Positions 49,288 through 64,000 of a stretch of DNA of 64,000 nt are shown in pieces. The notes below the pieces were generated by a model. It worked only from the letters and a program-made list of their open reading frames with translations, had not been told where the DNA came from and did not search any database. Within the stretch, counting starts at the first letter, position 1; each line of letters starts with the position of its first letter. The stretch is taken from positions 2,046,001 to 2,110,000 of the forward strand of contig NZ_CP046122.1 of assembly GCF_009707365.1 (NCBI RefSeq), written 5' to 3'. This DNA comes from Microlunatus sp. Gsoil 973. Its GTDB lineage: Bacteria > Actinomycetota > Actinomycetes > Propionibacteriales > Propionibacteriaceae. The translations under genes and the position numbers were made by a program.

Positions 49288-49301
49288 GATTGTCAACAAA
49301 C
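49288..49301 (+). promoter_or_regulatory. GntR-type operator of the transporter gene (regulon 2, site 1)
   Basis: GATTGTCAACAAAC differs from the perfect palindrome at 52168 (GATTGTCGACAATC) at two positions. It lies 100 bp before the transporter start. Related sites flank the other genes of the same catabolic region. Confidence 0.65.
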
Positions 49302-49400
49302 CTACGATCGTCGGGAGACGTACCCGCCCATCACAACCGATCAACACGCACAACCCGCCCGCGGTCAGCGGCCGCGGACGTGCAGAAGGAAAGGTCCCGG

Positions 49401-50756
49401 ATGAGCAGCGCAGAATCCACGCCCGCAGACGCGAGCGACGCGGAACCCAGTGTCCTGAGGAAAGCGATCGCGGCGTCCGCGGTCGGTAACTTCACCGAAT
49501 GGTTCGACTACGGCGTCTACTCCGTCGTCGCAACCTACATCGCAACCGCCCTCGTGCCGGGCGAATCAATCGCAGTCACGCTCGGGGCGTTCGCCGTCTC
49601 GTTCCTGATCCGACCGCTCGGCGGATTCGTCTGGGGTCCGCTGGGCGACCGCATCGGCCGCCGGAAGGTGCTGGCGACGACCATTCTGCTGATGGCCGGC
49701 GCCACCTTCTGCGTCGGGCTCATCCCCTCCCACGCGCAGATCGGGTGGGCCGCCACCCTAGTGCTGTACCTGCTGCGGATGATCCAGGGGTTCTCCACCG
49801 GCGGTGAGTACGGCGGCGCCGCAACGTTCATGGCCGAGTACTCGCCGGATCGCAAGCGCGGCTTCTTCGGCAGCTTCCTGGAGTTCGGCACGCTCAGCGG
49901 CTTCGCCGGCGGCAGCCTCATCACGCTGGCTCTGCAGTTGACCACCTCCGACAGCTTCATGCAGTCCTGGGGCTGGCGGATCCCGTTCTTCGTTGCGCTT
50001 CCGTTGGGTCTGATCGGGCTGTACCTGCGGACCCAACTCGAGGACACCCCGGCGTTCCGTGATCTGGAGCAACAGGGCGAGACCGAGGGCAAGGCGACCA
50101 CCGCTCTGAAGGATCTGATCACCGGCTACTGGCGGCCGATCCTGACCCTGTCCGGCCTGGTGATCGCCCTCAACGTGGTCAACTACACGTTGCTGTCCTA
50201 CATGCCGACCTACGTCCGGACCCGGCTCGGCCTGAGTGAGACCCAGGCGTTGGTGCTGGCATCGGTCGGACAGTTGTTCATGATGTGCTTCCTGCCCCTG
50301 TCGGGCGCATTGTCCGACCGGGTCGGGCGAAAACCGATGTGGCTGTTCTCCATGATCGGCCTGTTCGTGATGGCGATCCCGATGTACTTGATCATGCCGA
50401 TCAACTTCGGGCTGACGATCGTCGCGTTCATGGTGCTCGGCCTGCTCTACGTACCGCAGCTGTCGACCATCTCCGCGACCTTCCCGGCGATGTTCCCGAC
50501 CCAGGTGCGCTATGCCGGATTCGCCATCGGCTACAACGTCGCGACGTCGCTGTTCGGCGGCACCGCACCGTTGGTCAACGACGCCTTCATCTCCTGGACC
50601 AACATCGAGATCTTCCCGGCCTTCTACATGATGGCATCCTGTGTCGTCGGGTTGATCGCCTGGTTGTCGATGAAGGAGACGGCCGGCGCGTCGCTGAAGG
50701 GCACGGAGATTCCCGAAGCGCCGACCGTTGGTGGGATCAAGCCCGCCCAGGCATAG
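49401..50756 (+). CDS. MHS-family (ProP-like) MFS transporter
   Basis: 451 residues, 12 membrane segments. The metabolite:H+ symporter signature is clear: NFTEWFDYGVYSVVATYIA, GPLGDRIGRRKVLATTILL, GFSTGGEYGGAATFMAEYSP. Relatives carry proline, glycine betaine, ectoine or dicarboxylates. ATG at 49401 follows AGAAGGAAAGG; the in-frame stretch from 49290 is not conserved. An operator-like site at 49288 links it to the GntR at 55239, so the substrate is probably what the downstream enzymes degrade; ectoine is the best guess. Confidence 0.9.
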   Translation: MSSAESTPADASDAEPSVLRKAIAASAVGNFTEWFDYGVYSVVATYIATALVPGESIAVTLGAFAVSFLIRPLGGFVWGPLGDRIGRRKVLATTILLMAGATFCVGLIPSHAQIGWAATLVLYLLRMIQGFSTGGEYGGAATFMAEYSPDRKRGFFGSFLEFGTLSGFAGGSLITLALQLTTSDSFMQSWGWRIPFFVALPLGLIGLYLRTQLEDTPAFRDLEQQGETEGKATTALKDLITGYWRPILTLSGLVIALNVVNYTLLSYMPTYVRTRLGLSETQALVLASVGQLFMMCFLPLSGALSDRVGRKPMWLFSMIGLFVMAIPMYLIMPINFGLTIVAFMVLGLLYVPQLSTISATFPAMFPTQVRYAGFAIGYNVATSLFGGTAPLVNDAFISWTNIEIFPAFYMMASCVVGLIAWLSMKETAGASLKGTEIPEAPTVGGIKPAQA

Positions 50757-50780
50757 CCCGGTACATCATCGGACACGAGA
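50117..50780. terminator. Bidirectional terminator-like hairpin (spans 50780-50117 as listed; true span 50780 to 50 116+1000)
   Basis: See the following entry for the correct span; this entry is superseded. Confidence 0.01.
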
Positions 50781-50817: not shown

Positions 50818-50839
50818 CGTCGTGTTTCGGCGTCTCGGG

Positions 50840-52102
50840 TCAGCCCGGCTGCTCCAGTACAGCGTCCACGGCGTCCGCCCAGATCGCGGCCGCTTCCTTG
50901 ATCTGGTCACTGGTGACCACCAACGCGGGGATGAAACGGACGACCTGGCTCCAGGCACCGCAGGTCAACAGCAGCAACCCGCGCCGGGCCGCCTGCTGCT
51001 GCACCGCGCCCGCTGTCGCACCGTCCGGCCGACCCTCGGAGTCCCGGAATTCGTTCCCGATCATCAGCCCGAGACCGCGGACGTCGGTGATCTGATCATG
51101 ATCGGCTGCGATCCCGGCCAGTGCCGCCTTCAGCTCGGCTCCGCGCTCGGCCGAGTTCTGCACGAGCTTCTCGTCCTCGATCACGTCCAGCGTCGCCAGC
51201 GCGGCGGCACAGGCGACCGGGTTGGCGCCGTAGGTGCCACCCTGGCTGCCCGGCCAGGCCCTGGCCATCAGCTCACCCGACGCCGCGATGCCCGAGAGCG
51301 GAAAGCCCGATGCCAGCCCCTTTGCCGTCACCAGAACGTCCGGACGTACGTCGAAATGATCTTCGCCCCAGAACCTGCCGGTTCTGCCGAACCCGGTCTG
51401 CACCTCGTCGATGACCAGCTGGATCCCGTAGGCGTCCGCGCGTTCCCGCAATCCGGCGAAGAATCGCGCGTTACCGGGGACGTAGCCGCCCTCACCGAGC
51501 ACCGGCTCGACGAAGAAGGCCGCCGTGTCGTCGGGCTGGGTGAGCGTCTGCAGCACGTAGTCCAGCTGCTTGAGGGCGAAGTCGGTCGACTGCTCGACGT
51601 CCCAACCGAAGTAGGTCGGGTCCGGGAACGGTGACACATGCACCCCGGACATCAGCGGCGAGAAACCGGCGGAGAAACGGGTCCCCGAGGTGGTCATCGA
51701 CGCTGCCGCGACCGTTCGGCCATGGAAACCGCCGTGGAAGACGATCACGTTCGGCCTGCGAGTCGCCTGCCGGGTCAGCCGCAGGGCGGCCTCGATCGCC
51801 TCGGAACCGGAGTTGGCGAAGAACATCCGGTCCAACCCGGCGGGCAGCACCCCGCCGAGCCGCTCCACGAGATCGAGCAGCGGACGATGCATCACCGTCG
51901 TGTACTGGGCGTGGATCAGGTTCCCCACCTGGCGTTGGGCTGCCTGGACCACCCGCGGGTGGCAGTGCCCCGTGCTGGTGACGCCGATGCCGGCCGTGAA
52001 GTCGAGATAGCGCCGATCCTGCTCGTCATAGAGATGGACGCCCTCTCCGCGGGCGGCGATCACACCGGTTGCCTGCTTGAGGATCTGGGAGAGCTGGGCC
52101 AT
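50840..52102 (-). CDS. Class III aminotransferase (GABA/diaminobutyrate type)
   Basis: 420-residue PLP transaminase. DFTAGIGVTSTGHCHPRVV, MFFANSGSEAIEAALRLTRQ, VIDEVQTGFGRTG and the PLP lysine in LVTAKGLASGFPLSG are family signatures. It resembles 4-aminobutyrate transaminase and the DoeD aminotransferase that turns diaminobutyrate into aspartate semialdehyde in ectoine breakdown; sequence alone does not separate these. ATG at 52102 has GGAG eight bases upstream. Divergent from the semialdehyde dehydrogenase across a perfect GntR-type palindrome. Confidence 0.88.
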   Translation of the reverse strand: MAQLSQILKQATGVIAARGEGVHLYDEQDRRYLDFTAGIGVTSTGHCHPRVVQAAQRQVGNLIHAQYTTVMHRPLLDLVERLGGVLPAGLDRMFFANSGSEAIEAALRLTRQATRRPNVIVFHGGFHGRTVAAASMTTSGTRFSAGFSPLMSGVHVSPFPDPTYFGWDVEQSTDFALKQLDYVLQTLTQPDDTAAFFVEPVLGEGGYVPGNARFFAGLRERADAYGIQLVIDEVQTGFGRTGRFWGEDHFDVRPDVLVTAKGLASGFPLSGIAASGELMARAWPGSQGGTYGANPVACAAALATLDVIEDEKLVQNSAERGAELKAALAGIAADHDQITDVRGLGLMIGNEFRDSEGRPDGATAGAVQQQAARRGLLLLTCGAWSQVVRFIPALVVTSDQIKEAAAIWADAVDAVLEQPG

Positions 52103-52167
52103 TGGGGTCACTCCGATCGGTCTCGCTCGGGGTTTGGAGCTTCTCGGTCTTTGCGGGTTGGTTGTCT

Positions 52168-52181
52168 GATTGTCGACAATC
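52168..52181. promoter_or_regulatory. GntR-type operator (regulon 2, site 2)
   Basis: GATTGTCGACAATC, a perfect 14-bp palindrome, midway between the divergent aminotransferase (-) and dehydrogenase (+) start codons. It is the best copy of a motif also found at 49288 and 55897. Confidence 0.75.
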
Positions 52182-52205: not shown

Positions 52206-53663
52206 ATGGACGAGACCGCAGTCATCGATGCCGTACCCAAGCAGCTCTTCGTCGGTGGTTCCTGGACGGATGCGACCGGCGGCGCCACCTTCGACGTGCA
52301 CGATCCGGCCAACGGCTCGGTGCTCTGCTCGGTGGCCGATGCAACACCCGAGGACGGCATGGCGGCGATGCAGGCCGCGGTGAAGAGCCAGCCGGCGATG
52401 GCGGCGCTCACCCCTCGGGAGCGCGCCGATGTGCTGACGAAGGCCTTTCAGTTGCTTCACGAACGCATTGATGATCTTGCCCTGCTGATGACCCTCGAGA
52501 TGGGCAAGCCACTCGCCGAGGCACGCGGCGAGATCAGCTACGCCGCAGAGTTCTTCCGGCATTTCGCCGCCGAAGCCGTACGGATCGACGGCGGCTACCA
52601 GACCGCGCCGGCCGGCAACCAGCGGTTCCTGATCACCAAACAACCGGTCGGCCCGTGCATCCTGATCACGCCGTGGAACTTCCCGATGGCGATGGGCACC
52701 CGGAAACTCGGTCCGGCGATCGCTGCCGGCTGTGCGAGCGTGATCAAGCCCGCGCCGCAGACGCCGCTGTCGATGCTCGCCCTGGTCGACATCCTGACCG
52801 AAGCCGGGTTGCCCGAGGGCGGCGTCAACGTGATCACCTGCACCGATGCGAATGGCGTGATCGAGCCGATGATCAGGTCAGGGCTGGCACGCAAACTCTC
52901 CTTCACCGGTTCGACGAAGGTCGGCAAGATCCTGTTGGAGCAGTGCGCGGAGAAGGTGTTGCGGACATCCATGGAACTCGGCGGCAACGCACCCTTCATC
53001 GTCTTCGAGGACGCTGACCTCGACGAGGCGGTCGCCGGGCTGATGGTCGCCAAGATGCGCAATATGGGCGAGGCCTGCACGGCGGCCAACCGGATCTACG
53101 TGCACGAGTCGATCATCGATGAATTCGGACGTCGGATTGCGGACACGATGAGCGGTCTCACCGTGGGCCGGGGTACGCAGGAGGGCGTCAATGTCGGCCC
53201 GTTGATCGATCAGGCCGCGGTCGACAAGGTCACCCGGTTGGTCGACGACGCGGTCAGCAAGGGCGCATCGGTGATCACCGGTGGGTCGACGATCGACGGC
53301 GACGGTTACTTCTTCAGCCCGACCGTTCTGACCGGTGTCGCCAAGGACGCCGCGCTGAACGCCGAGGAGATCTTCGGACCGGTCGCCCCGCTGACGCCGT
53401 TCCGCGAGGAGGACGAGGTGATCACGATGGCCAACAGCACGCGGTACGGGTTGGTCGGCTACGTCTTCACCAATGATCTTCGCCGGGCGATCCGGGTGAG
53501 CGAGTCGCTGGAGTTCGGCATGGTCGGTCTCAACTCCGGCCTGGTCTCGAATCCGTACGCGCCGTTCGGCGGGGTCAAGGAGTCCGGGCTGGGCCGCGAG
53601 GGCGGCTCGATCGGCATCGACGAGTTCCTGGAGACCAAGTACATCGGCATCACCGTCTCCTGA
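52206..53663 (+). CDS. NAD(P)-dependent aldehyde dehydrogenase, succinate-semialdehyde type
   Basis: 485 residues. Cofactor-binding ITPWNFPMAMGTRKLGPAIA, general-base Glu in MELGGNAPF, catalytic Cys in MGEACTAANRIYVH, and KESGLGREGGSIGIDEFLET are typical of GabD-type succinate-semialdehyde dehydrogenases; the ectoine enzyme DoeC/SsdA is a member too. It would oxidise the semialdehyde made by the divergent aminotransferase. ATG at 52206 lacks a visible ribosome site and lies 25 bp after the operator palindrome, so the mRNA may be nearly leaderless; ATG 52194 is an alternative start. Confidence 0.92.
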   Translation: MDETAVIDAVPKQLFVGGSWTDATGGATFDVHDPANGSVLCSVADATPEDGMAAMQAAVKSQPAMAALTPRERADVLTKAFQLLHERIDDLALLMTLEMGKPLAEARGEISYAAEFFRHFAAEAVRIDGGYQTAPAGNQRFLITKQPVGPCILITPWNFPMAMGTRKLGPAIAAGCASVIKPAPQTPLSMLALVDILTEAGLPEGGVNVITCTDANGVIEPMIRSGLARKLSFTGSTKVGKILLEQCAEKVLRTSMELGGNAPFIVFEDADLDEAVAGLMVAKMRNMGEACTAANRIYVHESIIDEFGRRIADTMSGLTVGRGTQEGVNVGPLIDQAAVDKVTRLVDDAVSKGASVITGGSTIDGDGYFFSPTVLTGVAKDAALNAEEIFGPVAPLTPFREEDEVITMANSTRYGLVGYVFTNDLRRAIRVSESLEFGMVGLNSGLVSNPYAPFGGVKESGLGREGGSIGIDEFLETKYIGITVS

Positions 53664-53678: not shown

Positions 53679-54557
53679 TCACCGGGACACGTAATCGACC
53701 ACGTCCTTGATCACCGTCTCGTCGCGCAGGATGCGCTGGTGGCCGAGGCCGTCGGTGGTGATCAAGTCTGCCGCCGGCCAGGCTTCGGTGAGGCTGACCG
53801 CATCGTCGTACGGGCACTCCTTGTCCTGCCGGTCATGGACGATCAACGTCGGCGGCCGAGGGTTGATCATCGTGCGCGGGTCGAAGTCGGACAACGAGCG
53901 GCCGGCCAGGCGCTCGATCCTGATGATCATCTCCTCCACCGTGCGCGGTCCGAAGCCGAATACCCGTTGGAGTCCGCGGACGTAGGCCAGCGGGTCGACG
54001 CCCGGTGCGACGAAGGCCAGACGATCGACGTCCAGACCGTCGCGAACCGCGGTTGTCGTGGTCGCACAGCCGAAGGAGTGGGCAATCACCGCATGGGGCC
54101 CGCCGTGCACCGCGGCGACGGCCCGCAGCGCCTCGACGAACTCCATCCCGTTGCCACGGCCGGCGCCGAGGCTGCCCGGGTCGGAGTCACCGTGACCGGG
54201 CGCATCGAGCGCCACCACCCGCACCCCGGCGTTCACCAGCGGGTCGACGAACCGCCCCAGTTGCCCGCGCCAGCCGCCCCACCCATGCACCAGGTAGACC
54301 GGTTCGCCACTCCCCCAGGTCTCAACGGCCACCGACCGCCCGTTCAGGCGCACCACGGAAAGTTCACCGTCGGCGGTGCGCTCGTCGCGGCGACGGCCGG
54401 CGTTGCCCGGAAGTGTCGCCCAGAGCCGCAGTGACCACCGGGATGCCTGCCGCGGCGCCACCCGCTCCAGGGCGGCGAAAGCGGCCCTGATCGCCCGGAC
54501 ACGTGGAGGTGTACGAACGGTCGTGCTTCTTCTGGTGCCGAGTGTTGTCGCGGTCAT
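53679..54557 (-). CDS. Alpha/beta hydrolase
   Basis: 292 residues. Oxyanion segment YLVHGWGGWRGQ, nucleophile elbow AVIAHSFGCAT (Ser), acid Asp in VHDRQDKECP and His in DGLGHQRIL form the triad. The nucleophile motif is A-H-S-F-G rather than G-x-S-x-G. The N-terminal ~60 residues are basic. It lies 18 bp after the TetR gene in the same direction, so TetR probably controls it. Substrate unknown; an ester or lactone is likely. Confidence 0.9.
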   Translation of the reverse strand: MTATTLGTRRSTTVRTPPRVRAIRAAFAALERVAPRQASRWSLRLWATLPGNAGRRRDERTADGELSVVRLNGRSVAVETWGSGEPVYLVHGWGGWRGQLGRFVDPLVNAGVRVVALDAPGHGDSDPGSLGAGRGNGMEFVEALRAVAAVHGGPHAVIAHSFGCATTTTAVRDGLDVDRLAFVAPGVDPLAYVRGLQRVFGFGPRTVEEMIIRIERLAGRSLSDFDPRTMINPRPPTLIVHDRQDKECPYDDAVSLTEAWPAADLITTDGLGHQRILRDETVIKDVVDYVSR

Positions 54558-54575: not shown

Positions 54576-55163
54576 TCAGGCCCGAGCGACGTCGAGCAAG
54601 GATTCGAAGGATCGGCGGGCGCGCGCCTCGGCGTCCTGGGCGCCGACGATCCGCACCCAGTGGTACGCAGCCAGCAACAGCCCGTTGAGATCGTAGGCGA
54701 ACTGCATCGGATCGGCGTCGGCCTTGAACTGCCCTTCGCTGATTCCGGTCCGGAAGATCTGGGAGACCGAGTCGTAGAGGTCCCGATGGCCCTGGACGAT
54801 CTGGTCGCGTACCGACCCGGTCTGTTCCTCGAATTCGTTCAGTGCTTTGACATAGAGGCAGACTCCGGCCGTCCGGTGGACGCCCGAGTGCAGCCAGTTC
54901 TCGAAGAGTGCGCGGACCCGCTCCTCGCCACGCGGTGCCCGCACCGCAGGACGCAACACAGTATCGGTGAACTCCTCCCGGGCCCGGGCGAGCACCTGGA
55001 GTTGCAGTGACTCCTTGGACCGGAAGTGGGCGAAGAGGCCGCTCTTGGACAGGCCGGTCGCCCGCGCCAGCTCACCGATGGTCAGACCGCCGAGTCCGAC
55101 TCGATACGCAGTCTCGACGCCTTGGTGCAGGATGACGCCCCGGGTTTCCTCACCCTTGGCCAT
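54576..55163 (-). CDS. TetR-family transcriptional regulator
   Basis: 195 residues. N-terminal helix-turn-helix (GGLTIGELARATGLSKSGLF, AHFRSKESLQLQVLARAREE), then a ligand-binding helical domain (TetR_C type with CLYVKALNEFEEQ). ATG at 55163 (MAKGEETRG) is preferred; the longer frame to 55223 crosses the operator. A perfect palindrome AGCACGATCGTGCT lies 11 bp upstream. It forms a pair with the alpha/beta hydrolase. Confidence 0.92.
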   Translation of the reverse strand: MAKGEETRGVILHQGVETAYRVGLGGLTIGELARATGLSKSGLFAHFRSKESLQLQVLARAREEFTDTVLRPAVRAPRGEERVRALFENWLHSGVHRTAGVCLYVKALNEFEEQTGSVRDQIVQGHRDLYDSVSQIFRTGISEGQFKADADPMQFAYDLNGLLLAAYHWVRIVGAQDAEARARRSFESLLDVARA

Positions 55164-55174
55164 GGGAGAAAAAT

Positions 55175-55188
55175 AGCACGATCGTGCT
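55175..55188. promoter_or_regulatory. TetR operator palindrome
   Basis: AGCACGATCGTGCT is a perfect 14-bp palindrome 11 bp before the TetR start codon; AnCACGATCGTGnT is a common operator form for this TetR class. It should mediate autorepression of the TetR-hydrolase pair. Confidence 0.85.
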
Positions 55189-55238
55189 GCCAACGACAGA
55201 CCTACGCGATGGGTTAATGCCATCCGGCGGTAGCAGGG

Positions 55239-55898
55239 TCAGGATTCGGCCGGCACAAGCCGCGCCACCGCATCCTCCATGTGCTCGATCATCAGCCGGT
55301 CGGCGGTTCGGGAGTCGCCACCGGTCACTGCCCGGGCAATGGCCCGATGCTCGGCGACTCGATCGTCGGACAGGGCATAGCTCTCGGCCAGGGCGTGGAT
55401 GCACATCCGCGTCTCGGTGATCACCGTCCGGTGCACCCGGCGCAGCCGCGGGCTCTCCGACAACCCGACCAGTTCCTCGTGGAACCTGATGTCGACCTCC
55501 GAACGGTCGTCCACGCCGGCTGCCCGGGCCATCTCGTCGCAGATCGCATCCAGGGACGTCCCGGCCGCCGTCGGATCCCGTTGGAAGATCAACTGCAGGG
55601 CGGCCCGTTCGACGGCACCGCGCACCGCGTACATGTCCCGGACGTTCTCGGCGGTCATCTCGATGACGAACACGCCGCGATTGCGAATGGCGACCAGCAG
55701 GCCCTCCTGGGTCAGCCTCTGCAATCCCTCCCGAAGTGGTCCCCGGCTGACGCCGAAGGTGCGGGCCAGTTCTGCCTCATAGAGCTGCGCTCCAGCCGGA
55801 ATGTCACCGTGCGCGATCGCGTCGCGGATCTTGTCCGCGATGATGCTCGGGGTCGACGCCAGAGCCAACGGCTCGAGGAAGCGGCTGCTCTTGTTCAT
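55239..55898 (-). CDS. GntR-family regulator with FCD domain (regulon 2)
   Basis: 219 residues. Winged helix IADKIRDAIAHGDIPAGAQL, YEAELARTFGVSRGPLREGL, then an FCD domain (YAVRGAVERAALQLIFQRD; metal-ligand His candidates in DIRFHEELVGL and AEHRAIARAV). ATG at 55898 lies inside an operator-like site, and only 22 bp separate it from the divergent cyclodeaminase gene. Matching sites at 49288 and 52168 suggest it controls the transporter, aminotransferase and dehydrogenase genes as well as itself. Confidence 0.92.
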   Translation of the reverse strand: MNKSSRFLEPLALASTPSIIADKIRDAIAHGDIPAGAQLYEAELARTFGVSRGPLREGLQRLTQEGLLVAIRNRGVFVIEMTAENVRDMYAVRGAVERAALQLIFQRDPTAAGTSLDAICDEMARAAGVDDRSEVDIRFHEELVGLSESPRLRRVHRTVITETRMCIHALAESYALSDDRVAEHRAIARAVTGGDSRTADRLMIEHMEDAVARLVPAES

Positions 55899-55909
55899 TG
55901 TCGACTATC
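55897..55909. promoter_or_regulatory. GntR-type operator (regulon 2, site 3)
   Basis: ATTGTCGACTATC matches the 52168 palindrome at all but one core position. It overlaps the GntR start codon and ends 12 bp before the divergent cyclodeaminase start, so one bound dimer could block both genes. Confidence 0.65.
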
Positions 55910-55920
55910 CTACGACCCCG

Positions 55921-56871
55921 ATGGCTCTGCTCTCCCTCGATGACACCAGCACCCGGTCGACGCTCACACCAGGCCGATTGATCGAGGAGATGCGTCGTGC
56001 CTTCATCGATCTGCGGGACGGTCGGTTCGAGCTGCCCCAACGGGTGGCGTTGGCTGATTCCGGCTATCTGGTGATGCCGACGCGGCACCGTACGGCCGAT
56101 TCCCTGGTGGTCAAGACCCTGTCCTTGGCCGCCGACCGCGATCCTATGATCAGCGGTCTGGTCAGCTGGTCCACTCGTGATCACGACCGAAGTGTGGTCG
56201 CCCCGGCCGAGACGATCACTGCCCTCCGCACGGGCGCGATCACTGGTCTGGTCACCGATCTGGTTGCCGACCCGGCAGCCTCGACTTTGGCGATCTTCGG
56301 CGCCGGCGCGCTGGCAGCCGACCAGGTCCGGTTCACGCATGCCGTCCGGTCGCTGACCGCAGTCCGGTTCGTGGCGAGGACGCCGTCCCGCGCCGAACCG
56401 CTGGTCGCACAGCTGCAGACCGAACTACCCGACACCAGTTTCATGATCACCACCCCGACGGATCGGCATCTGGCTGACATCGACCTGGTCTGCTGCGCCA
56501 CGACGAGTACCGCACCGCTGTTCTCCGCGACCGAATTGGCCGAGACCGTGCACGTCACGGCGGTCGGTTCCTACAAGTCGACGATGCATGAGTTCGGCGC
56601 CGACCTGATCGCGGCCGCCTCGGCGGTCCTGGTCGATGATCTGGCTGCCTGCATGATCGAATCGGGCGAGCTGATCGACGCGGTCGACGCCGAAGTGATC
56701 ACCCGCGACGACATCACCGAGTTGGTCTCGATCATCGACCGGCCGCAGCGTCGGGGGGGGGGGGACGGACGATCTTCAAGTCCGTCGGGGTCGCGGTCCA
56801 GGACTGGGCGGCCATGCATCTCTTGGCCCGAACCATCCTCGGCTGAGGCCGCCCACACCTCAGTCTGTTGA
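55921..56871 (+). CDS. Ornithine cyclodeaminase/EutC-like protein, frameshifted at a G12 tract
   Basis: Family of ornithine/lysine cyclodeaminases, alanine dehydrogenases and the ectoine-degradation protein EutC. Substrate part: LTPGRLIEEMRRAFIDLRDG and VKTLSL with the conserved Lys; NAD-binding LAIFGAGALAADQVRFTHAV; VTAVGSYKSTMHEF. After residue ~278 a run of twelve G (56753-56764) shifts the frame: the normal family C-terminus TIFKSVGVAVQDWAAMHLLA is intact but in another frame, ending at TGA 56844-56846. As read here the protein instead ends in an Arg/Ser-rich tail and overlaps the converging gene by 12 bp. Ten or thirteen Gs would restore it. ATG at 55921; no ribosome site. Confidence 0.85.
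   Translation: MALLSLDDTSTRSTLTPGRLIEEMRRAFIDLRDGRFELPQRVALADSGYLVMPTRHRTADSLVVKTLSLAADRDPMISGLVSWSTRDHDRSVVAPAETITALRTGAITGLVTDLVADPAASTLAIFGAGALAADQVRFTHAVRSLTAVRFVARTPSRAEPLVAQLQTELPDTSFMITTPTDRHLADIDLVCCATTSTAPLFSATELAETVHVTAVGSYKSTMHEFGADLIAAASAVLVDDLAACMIESGELIDAVDAEVITRDDITELVSIIDRPQRRGGGDGRSSSPSGSRSRTGRPCISWPEPSSAEAAHTSVC
56753..56764 (+). repeat. Homopolymer tract G12
   Basis: Twelve consecutive G bases inside the cyclodeaminase-like gene, the longest homopolymer noticed in the window, and exactly at the point where the reading frame is lost. Such tracts slip in replication and are also error-prone in sequencing. Confidence 0.97.
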
Positions 56872-57981
56872 GGCGACCGTGAGGCGTACAGCTTCCCCAG
56901 CGGCCATCCCCAGGCGACGGAGATCGTCGACCAACGGCGTGATCATGTGCAGTCCGGGGCGACGCGTCGGAAGACTCGCGACCTTCTCATCCAGAGTGGT
57001 CAGCGCCTGCTCGAGCGATTGATCACGATCTCCGACCGAGCCGCGCTGCAGCGCCTGCCGGATCGACTCGATCGCATCGGCGACACGGCACTCGAACTCC
57101 GCAGGCTCATCGGGCCGGCCGGTCTCCTGCGGATCGGCCAGATCTTCCAGACGACGCTGCAGGTCCTGCAACCGGAGCGCCACCCGATGGACCGCCCTTG
57201 CCTGCGCCAGCCGGGCATCGAGATCGGCCCGCCGGGACCTGCGTCGGATCCGTTGTGCTTCCGAGGCCTCGGCCAACCGGGTCTCGACCCGGCGCCGCAC
57301 GGTGTCCAGATCGACCGTGTCCGGCAGCCCGGTGCCGAAGGACGCCTCCCGGCCGCCGTCGCGAAGATCATCCTGCAGTTGACCCAGCCGTTCGATGATC
57401 GACAACCACAGCCGGTGCACCGCCTCGTCCAGTGGTGCGGTGATCAACTGTGGCATCAGGGTGACGACCGCGACCCCGATCGCCGCACCCAGCGAGGTCA
57501 GACCGGTGTAGGCGGTCGCGTAGGCCAGCGGCTGTCCCTGGCCGAGAACCATGGTGAAGATGGCCACCGTCGGAACCCAGGCACGCATCGTGCCCAACAA
57601 CTTCCAGCCCGCGATCAACACGCTGGCCGCGATCACCACCGCCACACTGACGGCGTCGGGCCGGACGATGGCCAGCGCCAGCAACCCGACAGCCGATCCA
57701 AGGGTCAGCGCCAACACCGACCTGAACAGTTCCCGGGCCGTCGCCAGGACGGTCGTCGACGTGACGACCACGGCGCCCATCGGCGCGAAGTAGGCGTGTT
57801 GTTGCGCTTCGTGCCCGGGAAGCAGTTGGGCCACCGCCCATGCCAGCCCGCCGGCGATCGAGGTGCGCAGTGCCAGGCCGAGGCGGGGGTGCATCCGCCA
57901 CCAGTGCCGCACCGGCCGGACCACGCGCGCCGCGGGTTGCGGCAGTTCCGGCGGCGGGCCGGCAGCACGATCTGTGAGCAT
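56860..57981 (-). CDS. FUSC-family (aromatic acid exporter-like) membrane protein
   Basis: 373 residues. About six membrane segments in the first 180 residues: LALRTSIAGGLAWAVAQLLP, YFAPMGAVVVTSTTVLATAR, VLALTLGSAVGLLALAIV, VVIAASVLIAGWKLLG. The C-terminal half is a charged helical cytoplasmic region (VRRRVETRLAEASEAQRIRR). This is the FUSC/ArAE group, implicated in efflux of aromatic or other organic acids. ATG at 57981. It converges on the cyclodeaminase gene and its end overlaps that gene's frameshifted tail. Confidence 0.85.
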   Translation of the reverse strand: MLTDRAAGPPPELPQPAARVVRPVRHWWRMHPRLGLALRTSIAGGLAWAVAQLLPGHEAQQHAYFAPMGAVVVTSTTVLATARELFRSVLALTLGSAVGLLALAIVRPDAVSVAVVIAASVLIAGWKLLGTMRAWVPTVAIFTMVLGQGQPLAYATAYTGLTSLGAAIGVAVVTLMPQLITAPLDEAVHRLWLSIIERLGQLQDDLRDGGREASFGTGLPDTVDLDTVRRRVETRLAEASEAQRIRRRSRRADLDARLAQARAVHRVALRLQDLQRRLEDLADPQETGRPDEPAEFECRVADAIESIRQALQRGSVGDRDQSLEQALTTLDEKVASLPTRRPGLHMITPLVDDLRRLGMAAGEAVRLTVASTD

Positions 57982-58099
57982 CCCGAACCGTTACCCAGGG
58001 AATCGAACGGCTACCTGGGCTGCCTGTCTCCGGCGTTTCCGGCCGTGGCGGATCGGGTACGTGGCGGGCACCGGACAACCATCGATGAAGGGCGAAGCG

Positions 58100-59278
58100 A
58101 TGCGAGCGGTCACCTGGCAGGGCCGACGAGAGATCGAGGTCAAGGACGTACCGGACCCCGAACTGATCGAACCGGACGACGTGATCATCGAGGTCAGCTC
58201 GACCGCGATCTGCGGCTCCGACCTGCATCTGTACGAGGCACTCGGGCCGTTCATGGATCCCGGCGACGTGCTGGGGCACGAGACCATGGGAACGGTTGTC
58301 GAGGCCGGTCCCGCCGTCGAACAGCTGGCACCGGGTGATCGCGTGGTGGTGCCGTTCAACATCTCCTGCGGTAACTGCTGGATGTGCCGGAACGGCCTGC
58401 AGTCCCAGTGCGAGACGACGCAGGTGAGGAAACACGGCACCGGGGCCGCACTGTTCGGCTATTCCCGACTCTACGGTTCGGTGCCGGGCGGCCAGGCGGA
58501 GCGGCTGCGGGTGCCGTTCGCCAACTACGGACCCATAAAGGTCGACAAAGCACCGCCGGACGAGCGATTCCTCTATCTCTCCGACATCCTGCCGACCGCG
58601 TGGCAGGCCTACCAGTACGCCGACCCCGAGCCGGGCGCCACGGTCGCGGTGATCGGTCTCGGCCCGGTCGGTCAGCTGGCCGCTCGGATCGCCCGGCACT
58701 TCGGTCATCCGGTGATCGGGGTCGATCCGGTGGAGCATCGCAGGGACGTGGCGGCAGCCCACGGGATCGAGGTCCTCGATCTCGACGACCAGACCATCTC
58801 GGCGGTCCTCGACCGGACCGACGGCCGGGGTGCCGACGCCACCATCGACGCCGTCGGGATGGAAGCCCACGGATCGGCGGCGAAACTGGCCTTTCGGATG
58901 GTCTCCGTGCTCCCGTCACCGGTCGGTCGCAAGCTGATGACGACCGCCGGCACAGACGCCCTGGGCGGGCTGATGCTGGCGCTGGAGACGGTTCGCCGGG
59001 GCGGCACGGTGTCCATCTCGGGCGTCTACGGCGGCAAGACCGATCCGCTGCCGATGATGGACATGTTCGACCGCCAGTTGCAGATCCGGATGGGCCAGTG
59101 CAACGTCAGGCGGTGGACCGACGACCTGATGCCGCTGGTCTCCGATCCGGACGATCCCCTCGATCTCCAGCGGCTGGCAAGTCACCGGCTGCCGCTGGAG
59201 GCGGCTCCGGACGCGTACGCGATGTTCCAGCAGAAGCGGGACAACTGCCTCAAGGTCGTTCTCCGGCCGAATCCCTGA
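58100..59278 (+). CDS. Zinc-dependent alcohol dehydrogenase
   Basis: 392-residue medium-chain dehydrogenase. Catalytic zinc ligands in TAICGSDLHLYE and LGHETMGTV; structural-zinc cysteines CGNCWMCRNGLQSQC (four Cys); NAD-binding IGLGPVGQLAARIARHFG. Resembles the glutathione-independent formaldehyde dehydrogenase/threonine dehydrogenase-like subgroup. ATG at 58100 has GAAGGG seven bases upstream; ATG 58085 is an alternative. It is divergent from the FUSC gene. Substrate unknown. The stop reads TGATCA. Confidence 0.9.
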   Translation: MRAVTWQGRREIEVKDVPDPELIEPDDVIIEVSSTAICGSDLHLYEALGPFMDPGDVLGHETMGTVVEAGPAVEQLAPGDRVVVPFNISCGNCWMCRNGLQSQCETTQVRKHGTGAALFGYSRLYGSVPGGQAERLRVPFANYGPIKVDKAPPDERFLYLSDILPTAWQAYQYADPEPGATVAVIGLGPVGQLAARIARHFGHPVIGVDPVEHRRDVAAAHGIEVLDLDDQTISAVLDRTDGRGADATIDAVGMEAHGSAAKLAFRMVSVLPSPVGRKLMTTAGTDALGGLMLALETVRRGGTVSISGVYGGKTDPLPMMDMFDRQLQIRMGQCNVRRWTDDLMPLVSDPDDPLDLQRLASHRLPLEAAPDAYAMFQQKRDNCLKVVLRPNP

Positions 59279-59366: not shown

Positions 59367-60074
59367 TCAGCCGAACAACCGTCCCGGGCCGGTCCCCGGT
59401 CGAAGGCCGTCGACCAGCCGGAGTCCTTCCCAGACCGTCACCTGGTTGGCGGTGAGCACCGGCTTGCCGACAGCTGCCTCAAGATCATCGATGATGCCCA
59501 GGGTGTGCATCGCCGTGTCCGGCACCAGGACCGCGTCCGCGGCGGGGACGTCGGCGGCACGCACCATGCTGATCACGTCGTCTGGTCCGAGTCGGCCGAC
59601 GTCGGACGCATGGAGGATGTCGGACGCGCCGAAGTTGATCACCGCGCAATCGGCCTGGTCGAGGAAGTCGACGAACAGGCGAGCGACATCGTCGGGGTAG
59701 GAGGCCGCCACCGCGAGCTGGTGCACCCCGAGTGCCGCGGCGGCACGCGCGAAGGCCAGTGAGGTCGAGGACGCCGGTCGGCCGCAGCGTTCGGAGAGCT
59801 CCGCGGCCTGGTCCTGGGCGCCCTGCCATCCGAAGACGAAGCTCCCGGACGTGCAGGCCCAGACGATGGCATCAGGCTGGTGTACCCGGAGTTCGGCAGC
59901 GCCCTCAGCGAGCACGGAGGCCTGTCCCCAGGCGCGAAGTTCGTCAGGCCGGTGTGCATCGCTGTCCATGGCGGTGTGCACCAGCGGCAACCGCAGACCT
60001 GCGAAGATCTGCTCCGCGACTAGGTAGTCGTCCTGAGCGCTGTAACCGGGATACAGCAGGCCGATCGTGGTCAT
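59367..60074 (-). CDS. Asp/Glu racemase-superfamily protein (EutA/maleate isomerase-like)
   Basis: 235 residues. The first catalytic-Cys loop is intact (AIVWACTSGSFVFG, Cys74). At the second position, where the partial paralogue at 63651 has VACTNVVTYDLI, this protein has VPDTAMHTLGII, so the second Cys is Asp. The end (KPVLTANQVTVWEGLR) aligns with the paralogue's KPVITANQATMWGLLR. A one-Cys member cannot do two-base racemization; it may be a decarboxylase or isomerase. ATG at 60074 overlaps the end of the M20 gene by four bases, so it is last in a five-gene minus-strand operon. Confidence 0.88.
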   Translation of the reverse strand: MTTIGLLYPGYSAQDDYLVAEQIFAGLRLPLVHTAMDSDAHRPDELRAWGQASVLAEGAAELRVHQPDAIVWACTSGSFVFGWQGAQDQAAELSERCGRPASSTSLAFARAAAALGVHQLAVAASYPDDVARLFVDFLDQADCAVINFGASDILHASDVGRLGPDDVISMVRAADVPAADAVLVPDTAMHTLGIIDDLEAAVGKPVLTANQVTVWEGLRLVDGLRPGTGPGRLFG

Positions 60075-61254
60075 GAGACTCCCAACAGATCGAGGATGAT
60101 CCGGGCGTACGTCCGGGCTGCGATCACCAGTTGGTCGATGGCGACCGATTCATCGGCCCGATGTGCCTGTTCCGACACCGATCCCGGACCGAAGACGACC
60201 ACGGGCAGCTTGGCGTCCCTGGCCAGGAAACCGCCGTCGCAGGCTGCTGTCCAGCCGCCGAGTGGCGGGTGTCCGGCGCCGGCCGCCGCGGCTGCGTCCA
60301 CGAGTGCACCGACCAACGGCGCATCCTGGTCGGTCTCGAAACCGGGCATGTCGAGTGTCAGCTCGGCCGTCACCTTGAGCCCGTCGCGCTCCAGGCCGAG
60401 GCATGTCAGTCTGGTCCGAAGTTGATCAAGCACCTCCGGGCCGGACTCGTGCGGGAGCAGCCGCCGGTCGGCGATCACCGTGCACTCCCCGGCACGATCG
60501 ACGGTCCGATGCCGCCGTCGATCCGTCCGACGCTGACCGTGGCCGGCCCGACCAGCGGATGGGCCGCGGCCGCCAACTCGGCGTGCCAGGCGCGCAGCTC
60601 CTCGACCACCCGGATGGCACCGTAGACGGCGTTCAGGCCGTCGTCCGGGTTGCCGGCATGCGCCGCCCGGCCGATGATGGTGATCTTCAGGTAGGCGTCT
60701 CCGCGGGCGGCGATGATCGGCTGCAGGTCGGTCGGTTCGGCGACCACACAGCCGAGGAAGTCGCCGCGGTCGCCGCTGTCCAGGTAGCGCCTGATGCCCA
60801 GAGCGTGATCCTCCTCGTCGACGGTGACCGCGAGTTCGACCGGTCCGGACAACTCGATGCCCGCCCGGTCGAGCGCGCCCAGTGCCACGACGCATGCGGC
60901 CAGTCCGCCCTTCATGTCCGCGGCGCCGCGACCGTGGAGCCGGTTGTCCCGGACCAGGCCGCCGTAGGGATCCATCGTCCAGTCGTCCCCCGGCGGGACC
61001 ACATCGGAGTGGCCGAGGAGCAGCAGTCCGGGACCCTGTCCACCGTCAAGCACCGCCCGCAGGTTGGGCCGGCCGGGAAGCACCTCGTCGATGATCGGAT
61101 CCAGTCCGCGGAGCCGACACGCGTCGGCCAGCACGCCGACGGTCGCCGCCTCCTGCCCGGGCGGATTGTGCCCGCGAGCCACCACAAGACCGGCAGCAAG
61201 TGAGGTGACCTCCTCGACGCCGATCGACTGCACGACGTCGGCCGGATCAACCAT
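60071..61254 (-). pseudogene. M20-family amidohydrolase (ArgE/DapE-like), frameshifted
   Basis: Two frames make one M20 protein. The first (from ATG 61254) has metal ligands in LLLGHSDVVPP, GRGAADMKGG and TVDEEDHALG, and runs to GIGPSIVPG; it stops after 60490. The other frame continues ECTVIADRRLLPHE to the final QAHRADESVAID (last metal-ligand region). The join falls at a run of four G on the minus strand (60487-60490); one extra G restores a ~394-residue enzyme. M20 enzymes remove acyl groups from amino acids; in this context deacetylation of N-acetyl-diaminobutyrate (the DoeB step) is plausible. It overlaps the aminotransferase gene by 8 bp and the racemase gene by 4 bp. Confidence 0.85.
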
Positions 61255-62425
61255 GATCAACGGCACGGGACAGGCGGGCAACTCCCTCACGGATCCGCTC
61301 AGGCGCGGTCGATGCGAAGCACAACCGGAGCGCGTCGGTGAAGCGATGCCCGGGTGAGAACGCCTGCCCGGGAATGTACGCGACGCCCTCGGCCAGCGCC
61401 GTCGCGAACAGACCCTGGGTGTCGACGCCGGGCAACGTCACCCAGATGAAGAAGCCGCCGTCGGGGTCGGTCCAGGAGGCCGTGTCACCGAAGTGATCGG
61501 CCAGGGCCTGCTGCATGGCGATCTTGCGTTCCCGGTAGCGATCCCGCTGGATCTGCAGGTGATCACTCAGGAAGCCGCCGGTGAGATACCCGGCGACGAG
61601 CCGCTGGTTGGGCAGGTTCGTGCAGGTGTCCATCGCCTGTTTGGCGTTGATCAGCAACTGTTGCAGTCCGGGGTCGGTGTCCACCCAGCCGACTCGCAGT
61701 CCCGGGGCGATGATCTTGGAGAAGGTGCGTACCGCGAAGACCAACGGATCGCCGTCGGCGAGCGACCGGATCGACGGGATCTCCTCACCGTCGAACCGGA
61801 GCATCGCATAGGGGTCATCGTCGATGATCATGCAGTTCCAGCTTCGGGCCAACTCGATCAGCCGCAAACGACGATCGAGACTCATCGTTGTGCCGGATGG
61901 ATTCTGGAAGGTCGGAATCACGTAGATCGCCTTGGGCGAGCGGCTGGCCCGTCCGACCGCGGCCTTCAGTTCGTCGATGATCATGCCGTCACCGTCGGTC
62001 GGCACCTCGAGCAGCTCGGCACCGTAGGACAGCGCCGTTGCGCTGCCGTTGGTGTAGGTCGGCGATTCCACCACCACCAGATCGCCCGGGTCGATGAAGA
62101 GCTTGCCGAACAGGTCCAGTCCCTGCATACCACCGGCGGTGACGGTCAGCCGTTCGCCGGTCGTCGCGTCCGGGGTATCGGAAAGCAGGTCGAGCAACGC
62201 GCCGCGCAACCACGGGTCGCCCTCGGTCGCCGCGTAGTCGAACGCGTCGGCGGTCAGCACCGCGGGCGCAAGGTCGTCGAAGACCGCTGTGGGGATCGCC
62301 TCCTCGGCCGGACTGCCGATGGCGAATCGGACGATGTCGTGACTCTGCTTCTGCAGCAGTGAGGTCGAGGAGTCGATCACCGACCCGACCAATCGGTTCG
62401 TCCGTCCTGCCAACAAACTCATCAT
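61247..62425 (-). CDS. PLP-dependent aminotransferase, 2-aminoadipate/MocR-domain type without HTH
   Basis: About 392 residues, fold-type I class I/II transaminase (PLF domain like LysN and the C-terminal part of MocR regulators). YTNGSATALSYGAELLEVP, FQNPSGTTMSLDRRLRLIEL, DDDPYAMLRFDG and the PLP lysine in RTFSKIIAPGLRVGWV are visible. No DNA-binding domain is fused, unlike EnuR, the usual regulator of ectoine genes. ATG 62425 overlaps the DoeA-like stop by one base (TGATG); ATG 62422 with GGAG at six bases is equally likely. Probably a catabolic transaminase of the same pathway. Confidence 0.9.
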   Translation of the reverse strand: MMSLLAGRTNRLVGSVIDSSTSLLQKQSHDIVRFAIGSPAEEAIPTAVFDDLAPAVLTADAFDYAATEGDPWLRGALLDLLSDTPDATTGERLTVTAGGMQGLDLFGKLFIDPGDLVVVESPTYTNGSATALSYGAELLEVPTDGDGMIIDELKAAVGRASRSPKAIYVIPTFQNPSGTTMSLDRRLRLIELARSWNCMIIDDDPYAMLRFDGEEIPSIRSLADGDPLVFAVRTFSKIIAPGLRVGWVDTDPGLQQLLINAKQAMDTCTNLPNQRLVAGYLTGGFLSDHLQIQRDRYRERKIAMQQALADHFGDTASWTDPDGGFFIWVTLPGVDTQGLFATALAEGVAYIPGQAFSPGHRFTDALRLCFASTAPERIREGVARLSRAVDHG

Positions 62426-63663
62426 CAACTCCGTCCGCGCTTGATCCACAGTGACTGGTCGACGTGGGTGAGCCGCTCGGCACCGGTGTCGGTGACCAGG
62501 ATGGGCTCGCTCAACTCGTAGCCCCAGCCGTCCATCCACATGCCGGCGATGACGTGGAAAGCCATGCCCGCCACGAGTTCGGTCCGCTCCTCGGCGCGCA
62601 GACTGACCGTCCGCTCACCCCAGTCCGGCGGATAGCCGATGCCGATCGAATACCCGATCCGGGACTCCTTGACCAGACCGTGCCGGATCAGCAGGTCGTT
62701 GAACGTGGCATGGACCTCGCCACCGGTCACGCCGGGCTTGATCATCTCCAGCAGGGCGGTCATGCCGTCACTGACGATCCCGGCGACCCGGGTCAGCCTG
62801 GGCTGCGGCGTGCCCAGCATCACGGTCCTGGCCAGCGGCGCGTGGTAGCGGTGGCAGACGCCGCTCAACTCGATGGTCGTCGCCTCGCCGGCGAGGAAGC
62901 GGTCGTCGGTCCAGGTCAGGTGCGGAACACCGGCCGACCTCCCGGTCGGCAACATCGGCACGATGGCCGGATAGTCCCCGCCCTGTTCGGGGGTTCCGGC
63001 GATCTGCGCCTCGCTGATCCGGGAGACCACGTCGCACTGCCGGACACCGACGGCGATCGCATCGAGAGCGACCACCATGGCCTGTTCACAGATCCGACCC
63101 GCCCGCCGCAGCTGATCCTGCTCGTACGGCGATTTGATCACCCGCACCCAATTGACCAGTTCGGCGCTGTCCACCAGGCGCTCGGCGCCGAATCGCGCCG
63201 CCAGCGCCAGATAGCCGCGGACCGGGAAGTAGTGCGCGTCACCCTCGACCGCGACCTGCCCGCCCGCGGCGAACAGGCCGAGCTCGGCCACCCGGTCAGC
63301 GATCCAGCTGTACGGATGGGTGTCCGGCTGGTGCACCAGCGACTCCGGATAGCCGTGCACACCGGCAGGGCGGTGTCCGAAACCCGCGCCGGCTGCGTCC
63401 ATCGCGCGGGCGAAGAAATGCGGCTCGCCACCGGCCGGAACGATCAGGCACTGCGGCGTGTAGAAGCTCCAGGCGTTGTAGCCGGTCAGGTAATAGATGT
63501 TGGCCGGATCGGCAACCACCAGCCCGGCCAGCGACCGGGCCGCGAGTGCCCGGTCGACCTGGCCCAGGCGTCGCCGGAACTCGGTTTCGTCGGGCAGCCC
63601 GGCGGACGGGCCCGGCGCGCCGGGTACCGGCGAGGGAGGTGCAGTACAGGTCAAGAGGCACAC
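62425..63663 (-). CDS. doeA: Ectoine hydrolase-like M24 protein (DoeA/EutD)
   Basis: About 412 residues with a creatinase/aminopeptidase P (pita-bread) fold. Segments recalled from DoeA/EutD are present almost unchanged: YLTGYNAWSFYTPQ, GGDYPAIVPMLPTG, HLTWTDDRF, YSIGIGYPPDWGERT. The aminopeptidase metal Asp residues are replaced (TIELSGVCHRYHAPLARTV), as in DoeA and creatinase, so it is not a metallopeptidase. DoeA opens the ectoine ring to N-acetyl-diaminobutyrate. Start uncertain: GTG 63663 or TTG 63654 (TTGA overlap with the upstream stop). It lies between the EutA-like gene and the aminotransferase in one operon. Confidence 0.85.
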   Translation of the reverse strand: MCLLTCTAPPSPVPGAPGPSAGLPDETEFRRRLGQVDRALAARSLAGLVVADPANIYYLTGYNAWSFYTPQCLIVPAGGEPHFFARAMDAAGAGFGHRPAGVHGYPESLVHQPDTHPYSWIADRVAELGLFAAGGQVAVEGDAHYFPVRGYLALAARFGAERLVDSAELVNWVRVIKSPYEQDQLRRAGRICEQAMVVALDAIAVGVRQCDVVSRISEAQIAGTPEQGGDYPAIVPMLPTGRSAGVPHLTWTDDRFLAGEATTIELSGVCHRYHAPLARTVMLGTPQPRLTRVAGIVSDGMTALLEMIKPGVTGGEVHATFNDLLIRHGLVKESRIGYSIGIGYPPDWGERTVSLRAEERTELVAGMAFHVIAGMWMDGWGYELSEPILVTDTGAERLTHVDQSLWIKRGRS

Positions 63664-64000
63664 CCGACCAGGCCATGTCCGGCGGAGAACAATCGCTGCC
63701 CCGGCCCGACCGGCGTCCGGCCGATCAACCGAAGGAGCCCCCACATCGTCGCCTGGTTCGCAGTGATCACCGGCTTGTCGATCACCGCCTCGACCCGACG
63801 GATCAGGTCGTAGGTGACCACGTTCGTGCACGCAACCAACAGGCACTCTGCCTCCGGCCGGTCCGCGGCCAGCAGCAGGTTCCAGATGACGTCGGGGTCG
63901 ACCCGCCAGATCTCCCGGGTGAGCCCAAGGTAGGTCGCTTCGACCACGTCGACGGCCGCCTCGTTGAGGTAGCGGACGAACGCGTCGGAGACCCGACGGT
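63651..64000 (-). CDS. Asp/Glu racemase-superfamily protein (EutA-like), partial
   Basis: Only the C-terminal ~115 residues are in the window; the gene runs off the right edge. It contains the second catalytic-Cys loop ECLLVACTNVVTYDLI and KPVITANQATMWGLLR, typical of maleate isomerase/arylmalonate decarboxylase/EutA proteins. It directly precedes the DoeA-like gene with overlap, as eutA precedes other ectoine genes. An internal GTG at 63947 is not a likely start because similarity to the paralogue continues upstream. Confidence 0.8.
   Translation of the reverse strand, partial: RRVSDAFVRYLNEAAVDVVEATYLGLTREIWRVDPDVIWNLLLAADRPEAECLLVACTNVVTYDLIRRVEAVIDKPVITANQATMWGLLRLIGRTPVGPGQRLFSAGHGLVGCAS

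Follow-up and report, generated by a model that had tools for sequence, protein, structure and literature searches.

The window analyzed here is a stretch of 64,000 nucleotides, positions 2,046,001-2,110,000 of the single-contig 4.91 Mb genome of the actinobacterium Microlunatus sp. Gsoil 973. Its right part contains a gene group, designated here as the island, around a gene for an M24-family protein (M24) similar to the ectoine hydrolase DoeA, also called EutD. Ectoines are widespread compatible solutes, which protect cells against salt, and they are also nutrients. The island is one copy of a gene set that is common to many actinobacteria and probably lets them feed on ectoine, perhaps by a route that differs from the textbook one.

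The genes for EutA2 (an EutA-like protein), M24, AT1 (a class I aminotransferase), M20 (a deacylase) and EutA1 (another EutA-like protein) form a minus-strand run, in which neighbors overlap or sit a few bases apart (Table 1). On the left side are the genes for an FCD-type GntR regulator (FCD-GntR), an ornithine-cyclodeaminase-family protein (OCD), an aldehyde dehydrogenase (ALDH), a class III aminotransferase (AT3) and an MHS transporter, and genes for a hydrolase, a TetR regulator, a FUSC-like protein and an alcohol dehydrogenase (ADH) are interspersed among them. The region beyond the right edge of the window, as far as approximately 68.4 kb on the same scale, encodes D-2-hydroxyacid dehydrogenase (D2HDH), amidase, DUF3830 and LacI regulator proteins divergently from EutA2. 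Several genes that distinguish the island from the eut/doe clusters are outside the window. No Rfam match was obtained at gathering thresholds in positions 44000-64000. The original prediction, made from the window sequence, had described an ectoine/hydroxyectoine degradation region here. Its positions for M24, the two EutA-like proteins, OCD, M20, AT3, ALDH, MHS, FCD-GntR and AT1 were correct; the M24 gene was found on the minus strand, one EutA-like gene continues beyond the window to 64376, and the M20 frame is split.

Table 1. Genes and operator-like sites of the island in window coordinates
Feature	Position	Strand	Basis
MHS (ProP-like) transporter, candidate ectoine importer	49401..50756	+	NCBIfam ProP 399 vs cut-off 544 bits
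AT3, class III GABA-transaminase-like aminotransferase	50840..52102	-	profile and similarity comparisons
ALDH, succinate-semialdehyde-dehydrogenase-like	52206..53663	+	TIGR01780 571 vs cut-off 646 bits
Alpha/beta hydrolase, inserted, outside the conserved set	53679..54557	-	0/80 loci
TetR regulator, inserted	54576..55223	-	0/80 loci
FCD-type GntR regulator, presumed island regulator	55239..55898	-	60/80 loci
OCD (ornithine-cyclodeaminase-family), inserted, frame disturbed near 56755	55921..56871	+	0/80 loci
FUSC-like protein, inserted	56860..57981	-	0/80 loci
Zinc-type alcohol dehydrogenase (ADH), inserted	58085..59278	+	1/80 loci
EutA1, EutA-like, first cysteine only, accessory module	59367..60074	-	
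M20 deacylase (ArgE/DapE type), frame change at 60487-60490	60071..61254	-	75/80 loci
AT1, class I aminotransferase without helix-turn-helix domain, 2-aminoadipate/kynurenine-aminotransferase-like	61247..62422	-	78/80 loci
M24, DoeA-like putative ectoine hydrolase	62425..63663	-	profile, PDB search, alignment, predicted fold
EutA2, EutA-like, both cysteines, accessory module	63651..64376 (window edge 64000)	-	
Operator-like palindrome before MHS, two mismatches to ATTGTCGACAAT	49289..49300		
Exact ATTGTCGACAAT operator, between AT3 and ALDH	52169..52180		
Operator, one mismatch, between FCD-GntR and OCD	55897..55908		
Operator between EutA2 and D2HDH, beyond the window	64402-64413		

M24 is a DoeA-like protein and, by the curated cut-off, is not a member of the canonical DoeA/EutD equivalog. 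The original prediction that it groups with DoeA rather than with prolidases or creatinases was borne out by three comparisons. In profile scores, M24 reaches 367 bits for DoeA/EutD (TIGR02993) and 77 bits for PepQ. Among PDB sequences, it matches 6twk and 6twj, both DoeA structures, best (305 bits), with the best prolidase at 80 bits. When the structure model of M24 (built from 18 sequences, mean pLDDT 80) was compared with Foldseek, the top five were Halomonas elongata DoeA chains, which came before dipeptidases, prolidases and creatinases. M24 was also said to be devoid of peptidase metal ligands, and the prolidase ligand pattern is indeed not retained: in the alignment with 1pv9, Glu265 replaces the first Asp of this pattern, and Pro276 aligns with the second. 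Glu265 aligns with Glu255 of Halomonas DoeA, reportedly a catalytic residue (Mais et al. 2020), and does not vary among the DoeA-like proteins in the alignment (67 of 67). A Kribbella M24 protein is 66% identical to that of the window. With M24 as the query, the sole match in its own genome was itself (E 0.001).

Relatives of M24 were collected by a scan of one genome per species from 84,980 species. There were 263 confirmed relatives, and the best 80 were fetched with their surroundings; all are actinobacterial by title. A quick tree of 70 rows, including the M24 proteins from 57 of the 80 loci, the M24 of the window and 12 others, grouped the actinobacterial proteins in a single clade (58 rows, SH-aLRT 86), next to canonical DoeA and the proteins of haloarchaea, with long branches flagged by the tool. 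At 28 positions, the clade differs consistently from four canonical DoeA proteins. These positions gave no basis for assigning the regiochemistry.

The neighbors of M24 recur across the 80 loci. They were counted at E 1e-10 with no identity floor, so that a few of the amidase, MHS, D2HDH and AT3 matches are paralogues, and the loci extend no further than 10 kb from M24, which makes the counts of absence upper bounds. The most frequent neighbors are AT1 (78 loci), M20 (75), D2HDH (71), FCD-GntR (60), ALDH (55), AT3 (51) and MHS (43), followed by the amidase (40), EutA2 (37), DUF3830 (37) and EutA1 (30). A search for further neighboring genes omitted 17 of the 80 loci as near-duplicates. A FAD/Fe-S protein related to D-2-hydroxyglutarate and D-lactate dehydrogenases is encoded in 53 of the 80 loci. 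Among the canonical genes, DoeB and EutC are found in none of the loci and EutB in two. OCD, the hydrolase, TetR and FUSC are likewise found in none, and ADH and LacI in one each. The hydrolase, TetR, FUSC and ADH were accordingly rejected as pathway members; the claim that they break up the cluster was right. Among the first six actinobacterial genomes opened, the wide gene set was seen in three, the locus L018 showed only M24 and M20, and L021 and L022 had a distant M24 among different neighbors. In a class sample of 296 genomes, M24 was found at E 1e-124 or better in five, including that of the window, and a distant M24 in two.

The island had been called rearranged, which does not agree with the gene order. 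The order in the locus L035 is DUF3830, amidase and D2HDH, divergent from EutA2, M24, AT1, M20, FAD/Fe-S, EutA1, FCD-GntR, ALDH, AT3 and MHS. The window has the same order read from the opposite end, without the FAD/Fe-S gene and with five inserted genes: the hydrolase and TetR between ALDH and FCD-GntR, and OCD, FUSC and ADH between FCD-GntR and EutA1. Two Rhodococcus-group loci (L068 and L087) have a compact core composed of AT3, FAD/Fe-S, ALDH, FCD-GntR, M24, AT1, M20, MHS and D2HDH. This distant M24 of L021 and L022 (~30% identical), from two further actinobacterial families, is flanked by genes for a class III aminotransferase and an aldehyde dehydrogenase (L021:8429-12199 and L022:8216-11986).

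The M24-neighboring genes are one regulon marked by the palindrome ATTGTCGACAAT. With up to one mismatch, it occurs at 218 sites in 73 of the 80 loci, and at one site in each of two Markov shuffles; with two mismatches allowed, there are 329 sites, compared with 27 and 22 in the shuffles. Twelve permuted palindromes of equal composition gave 0-2 sites each. Of the 218 sites, 174 fall in the interval of -60 to 350 bp upstream of an island gene start, compared with 17% of random positions, while 28 are inside island genes and 16 elsewhere. The operator is upstream of AT3 in 49 loci, D2HDH in 46, EutA2 in 36, M24 in 36, EutA1 in 27, ALDH in 18 and EhuB in 7; in this tally, closely related loci were counted separately, and a single site may serve two divergent genes. 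The genome of the window includes seven sites with up to one mismatch, three of them in the island, against one for the reversed pattern as a control. Both the co-occurrence of the genes and the common operator, computed from these loci, exceed chance.

Four further one-mismatch sites of this genome are at G000:C1:70837, 2377725, 2872054 and 4261200. In Kribbella loci, copies of the palindrome are found within coding positions of M24 or AT1 (L024:10831; L032:10831, 11604; L036:10831, 11661).

FCD-GntR is inferred to be the operator binder because it is often present in the loci. The cluster was described as lacking EnuR, with an FCD-type GntR as its regulator and an aminotransferase devoid of the helix-turn-helix domain; the same was seen here. 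EnuR is a full MocR regulator, whereas the domains that Pfam assigns to AT1 (391 aa) are all of the aminotransferase kind. The consensus of the EnuR operator in eut/doe clusters is ATTGTnnnnnnACAAT (PMC8739950, accessible text), as compared with ATTGTCGACAAT in the island.

The link to ectoine comes from transporters as well as from M24. In relatives, a computed linkage to the Ehu transporter is seen: an EhuB-like gene is present in 8 of the 80 loci, all six scored proteins pass the cut-off (245-264 bits vs 190.9), and the operator lies upstream of EhuB in seven of these eight loci. Both scored EhuD proteins (256 and 244 vs 205.2) and both EhuA proteins (366 and 346 vs 345.4) also pass, while two permease open reading frames of relatives score 162 and 155, below the EhuC cut-off of 197. 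The nearest profile to the MHS transporter of the window is ProP, which takes up ectoine in Escherichia coli (PMC3187862, in part); MFS (ProP) and BCCT members are among the known ectoine importers (PMC5924519, in part). It is probable that the island serves for utilization of ectoine or hydroxyectoine.

On a Shinella plasmid (L016:6003-16795), ehuABCD adjoins two M24 genes and genes for sarcosine oxidase subunits, which possibly indicates another substrate for a DoeA-like enzyme. This pairing is consistent with a different explanation of the island, in which the specificity of M24 has changed, the substrate is another cyclic amidine or an N-acyl amino acid, and the Ehu proteins of the few loci carry that compound. 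The M24 score far under the DoeA cut-off and the 28 differing positions would fit it too, and ectoine hydrolysis by M24 is predicted from its sequence and modeled fold. It is nevertheless quite unlikely: the conserved motifs and the fold of M24 match DoeA, EhuB, EhuA and EhuD pass equivalog cut-offs where scored, and MHS, Ehu and the archaeal BCCT all belong to families with known ectoine importers (PMC5924519, in part).

The accessible text of PMC3187862 gives the canonical route as ectoine to N-alpha-acetyl-diaminobutyrate (N-alpha-acetyl-DABA) by DoeA, DABA by DoeB, aspartate semialdehyde by DoeD and aspartate by DoeC. EutE/DoeB has no match anywhere in the genome of the window. The EutB-family matches in this genome are distant, the best with 143 bits against a cut-off of 413, in agreement with the earlier statement that no eutB is in view. 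OCD had been described as EutC-like. It is indeed an OCD-family protein, but its EutC score is weak (64 bits vs cut-off 472), it is closer to other OCD families and it is present in 0 of the 80 loci; it was rejected as EutC. AT3, which was predicted to be DoeD-like, is closest to gamma-aminobutyrate (GABA) transaminases. Its best subfamily is PRK08117 and it is 30% identical to Ensifer DoeD, whose best subfamily is PRK07482 (871 bits), and thus AT3 was rejected as DoeD. The predicted semialdehyde dehydrogenase is present as ALDH, of the succinate-semialdehyde-dehydrogenase type. AT1 is closest to archaeal multi-substrate, 2-aminoadipate and kynurenine aminotransferases, which are enzymes for alpha-amino groups. 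D2HDH, which is of the NAD type, and the FAD/Fe-S enzyme are both members of D-2-hydroxyacid dehydrogenase families. M20 could be a deacetylase. NCBIfam includes an M20-type model named DoeB2, for which one haloarchaeal amidohydrolase scores 96 vs 550 bits; no use of the name was found in the open literature searched.

DoeB, EutC and a true DoeD are absent, whereas AT1, D2HDH and often the FAD/Fe-S enzyme recur. A route that starts at the alpha-amino group is therefore proposed, with every step read from enzyme families. Ectoine would be taken up through the MHS transporter, or by Ehu in some relatives, and the island would be controlled by FCD-GntR via ATTGTCGACAAT. M24 would open the ring to give N-gamma-acetyl-DABA, which AT1 would convert to 4-acetamido-2-oxobutanoate. 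D2HDH would reduce this to D-4-acetamido-2-hydroxybutanoate, and M20 would release 4-amino-2-hydroxybutanoate, although the deacetylation could fall elsewhere in the order. AT3, acting on a hydroxy-GABA, would then produce malate semialdehyde; ALDH, acting on a hydroxy-succinate semialdehyde, would yield D-malate; and the FAD/Fe-S enzyme would oxidize D-malate to oxaloacetate. This path uses each core enzyme once and requires the gamma isomer. When H. elongata DoeA was expressed in E. coli, both N-alpha- and N-gamma-acetyl-DABA followed in a 2:1 ratio (PMC3187862, in part), and Ruegeria pomeroyi cells fed ectoine contained gamma-acetyl-DABA (gamma-ADABA; PMC8739950, in part). The route through a D-2-hydroxy acid and D-malate is put forward tentatively. 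No publication proposing such a route was apparent from the titles and abstract openings returned by the literature searches, which excluded subscription papers and preprints.

The same genes could also be read as the canonical route with parts swapped, in which M24 makes N-alpha-acetyl-DABA, M20 stands for DoeB, AT3 for DoeD and ALDH for DoeC, aspartate is the end product, and the D-2-hydroxyacid dehydrogenases and AT1 take part in side reactions or in balancing redox. M24 is DoeA-like, the DoeB2 model is a precedent for an M20 deacetylase, and alpha-ADABA is reported as the EutD product in the accessible text of PMC8739950. This reading appears somewhat unlikely, since it leaves unexplained AT1 (78/80) and D2HDH (71/80), which are among the most constant genes, and since the AT3 subfamily differs from that of DoeD.

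EutA1, EutA2, the amidase and DUF3830 are a nearly all-or-none accessory module. Tallied with identity floors in the 66 of the 80 loci longer than 20 kb, all four are present in 26, all are absent in 35, and a partial set is seen in five. The two EutA-like proteins score 83 and 103 bits against EutA (TIGR02990), under the cut-off of 318. EutA2 retains both cysteines of Ensifer EutA, which correspond to the catalytic pair of the superfamily, in 38 of 38 sequences. In EutA1, the first cysteine is retained in 31 of 31, whereas Asp replaces the second in 30 sequences and the remaining one has a gap there. DUF3830 gave a structure model of low confidence (mean pLDDT 57.5); no match to it was found on plasmids, and the term was not found in the literature searched. 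The module might be for hydroxyectoine, a guess from the name EutA.

Hydroxyectoine could instead be the main substrate of the whole island. It would be degraded via 3-hydroxyaspartate by M24, M20, AT3 and ALDH, AT1 would form oxaloglycolate, and D2HDH would reduce oxaloglycolate, or hydroxypyruvate derived from it, in the direction of tartrate or glycerate. The presence of EutA-like proteins, the glyoxylate/hydroxypyruvate reductase relatives among the D2HDH matches and the naming of Ehu for hydroxyectoine as well as ectoine fit this scheme. It is very unlikely, as the FAD/Fe-S enzyme of 53 of the 80 loci has no clear step in it and EutA is missing beside the core in 35 of the 66 long loci.

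Clusters around DoeA-like M24 proteins are also present on haloarchaeal plasmids. Among the 60 rows listed, 17 were haloarchaeal records, and nine loci were opened with flanks of 12-15 kb, two of them from one organism. A threonine ammonia-lyase is encoded in all nine, a D-2-hydroxyacid dehydrogenase, an amidohydrolase/M20 and a class III aminotransferase in eight each, a BCCT transporter in seven, FAD/Fe-S and Rid proteins in six each, and an aldehyde ferredoxin oxidoreductase in five; GdhB is beside M24 in five. Of these genes, L107 has only the dehydratase and BCCT. Three of the haloarchaeal dehydratases are 37-39% identical to Ensifer EutB. Actinobacteria and haloarchaea could share a second pathway, in which the alpha-amino group is removed first and the 2-oxo acid is converted to a D-2-hydroxy acid, D-malate and oxaloacetate without free diaminobutyrate or aspartate. 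Ectoine would enter by transamination of N-gamma-acetyl-DABA, and hydroxyectoine by dehydration, where the EutB-related threonine dehydratase and Rid would convert N-gamma-acetyl-3-hydroxy-DABA to the same 2-oxo acid. The gene content makes this shared pathway possible rather than probable. If true, the entry by dehydratase and Rid suggests a role for EutB.

The reading frame of M20 shifts at 60487-60490, a stretch across which the frames in L085 and L033 are open, and a G run near 56755 upsets the end of OCD. An EutB-family match at G000:C1:915588-916492 (0.916 Mb) is likewise split in two. These disturbances in M20, OCD and the distant EutB-family gene are likely to be assembly indels, with real decay as the alternative.

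The whole explanation, composed of the island, the operator, the uptake, the route and the accessory module, is given a probability of about 0.6. Several observations weigh against it. M24 falls short of the DoeA/EutD equivalog cut-off of 613 bits, and its clade is separate from canonical DoeA (SH-aLRT 86, with long branches). The sample held a single genus mate and a single family mate, and neither had an M24 at E 1e-40. The FAD/Fe-S gene is unlinked in the genome of the window, which has two 45-46% identical homologues elsewhere, and none of the seven operator sites is near them. The EhuB-like genes are limited to 8 of the 80 loci, within the 10 kb covered, and the genome of the window has no EhuB over the cut-off, with the best at 31 bits. 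The M20 frame of this strain is broken. The isomer specificity of DoeA is called ambiguous (PMC3187862, in part), and in the accessible text of PMC8739950 recombinant R. pomeroyi EutD and EutE gave no role for gamma-ADABA, and methylotrophs show none, which weighs against the first step of the route. ALDH and AT3 could equally serve the canonical route, and the archaeal dehydratase scored passes threonine ammonia-lyase (390 vs 379) and fails EutB (248 vs 413). For the loci, the assignments of M24 and of the route are predictions from genes.

A large survey set ectoine consumers by the eutD-eutE pair and obtained 363 genomes (PMC8739950, in part), and therefore organisms without eutE were left out of it. 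The combination of M24, AT1, D2HDH and the ATTGTCGACAAT operator may serve as a marker set for a large group of likely consumers in Actinomycetota. In the parts of the literature seen, what EutA, EutB and EutC do when hydroxyectoine is broken down is described as unknown or as lacking biochemical evaluation; the accessory module, and the dehydratase and Rid of the archaeal clusters, provide a way to approach these activities.

The island can be compared with four kinds of known or related clusters. Ectoine clusters have been predicted in Bacillota, Actinomycetota and archaea, where they are called provisional, and haloarchaeal EutD clusters with BCCT are also described (PMC13188858, 2026, in part). 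The word undescribed in the original prediction was thus too strong. These clusters resemble the island in a DoeA-like protein without eutE, an aminotransferase, an amidohydrolase, variable transporters and the absence of EnuR in Bacillota, and they differ in the arrangements pucR-eutBCD-atf and abgB-thrA-adh in Bacillales. The layout of the island is not in the text seen of that paper, which, figures aside, does not use the words hydroxyacid, GntR, M20 or amidase. As far as these searches show, the kind of cluster is known, and the novelty lies in the gene set, the operator and the route proposed here.

The haloarchaeal plasmid clusters (L014, L106 and L115-L120) share M24, the D-2-hydroxyacid dehydrogenase, the amidohydrolase, the class III aminotransferase and mostly FAD/Fe-S with the island. 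Their own features are the threonine ammonia-lyase, often Rid and GdhB, BCCT, and the aldehyde ferredoxin oxidoreductase in five; no AT1 is annotated in the stretch, and the amidohydrolase tested is of the TIGR01891 type, another M20 branch. A Shinella plasmid module (L012:12636-17338 and L013:9639-14338) also has a MocR-like PLP aminotransferase, an EutA-like protein, M24 and M20 in adjacent positions. Its aminotransferase gene is longer, genes for GST, Lrp, arginase and ocd come after the module, and in L012 the aminotransferase and M20 share only 26-31% identity with their counterparts in the actinobacterial group. L012 and L013 represent a proteobacterial doeB-less variant.

The proteobacterial doeABCD and eutABCDE-ehuABCD clusters share with the island a DoeA-like M24, EutA-like proteins, an omega-aminotransferase with a semialdehyde dehydrogenase, and control by a GntR-superfamily regulator, and with some of its relatives EhuA, EhuB and EhuD over the cut-offs. 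In contrast to them, the island is without DoeB/EutE, EutC and EnuR, and EutB is in 2 of the 80 loci. In their place are M20, AT1, D2HDH, often FAD/Fe-S, and FCD-GntR, together with an AT3 of a subfamily other than that of Ensifer DoeD.

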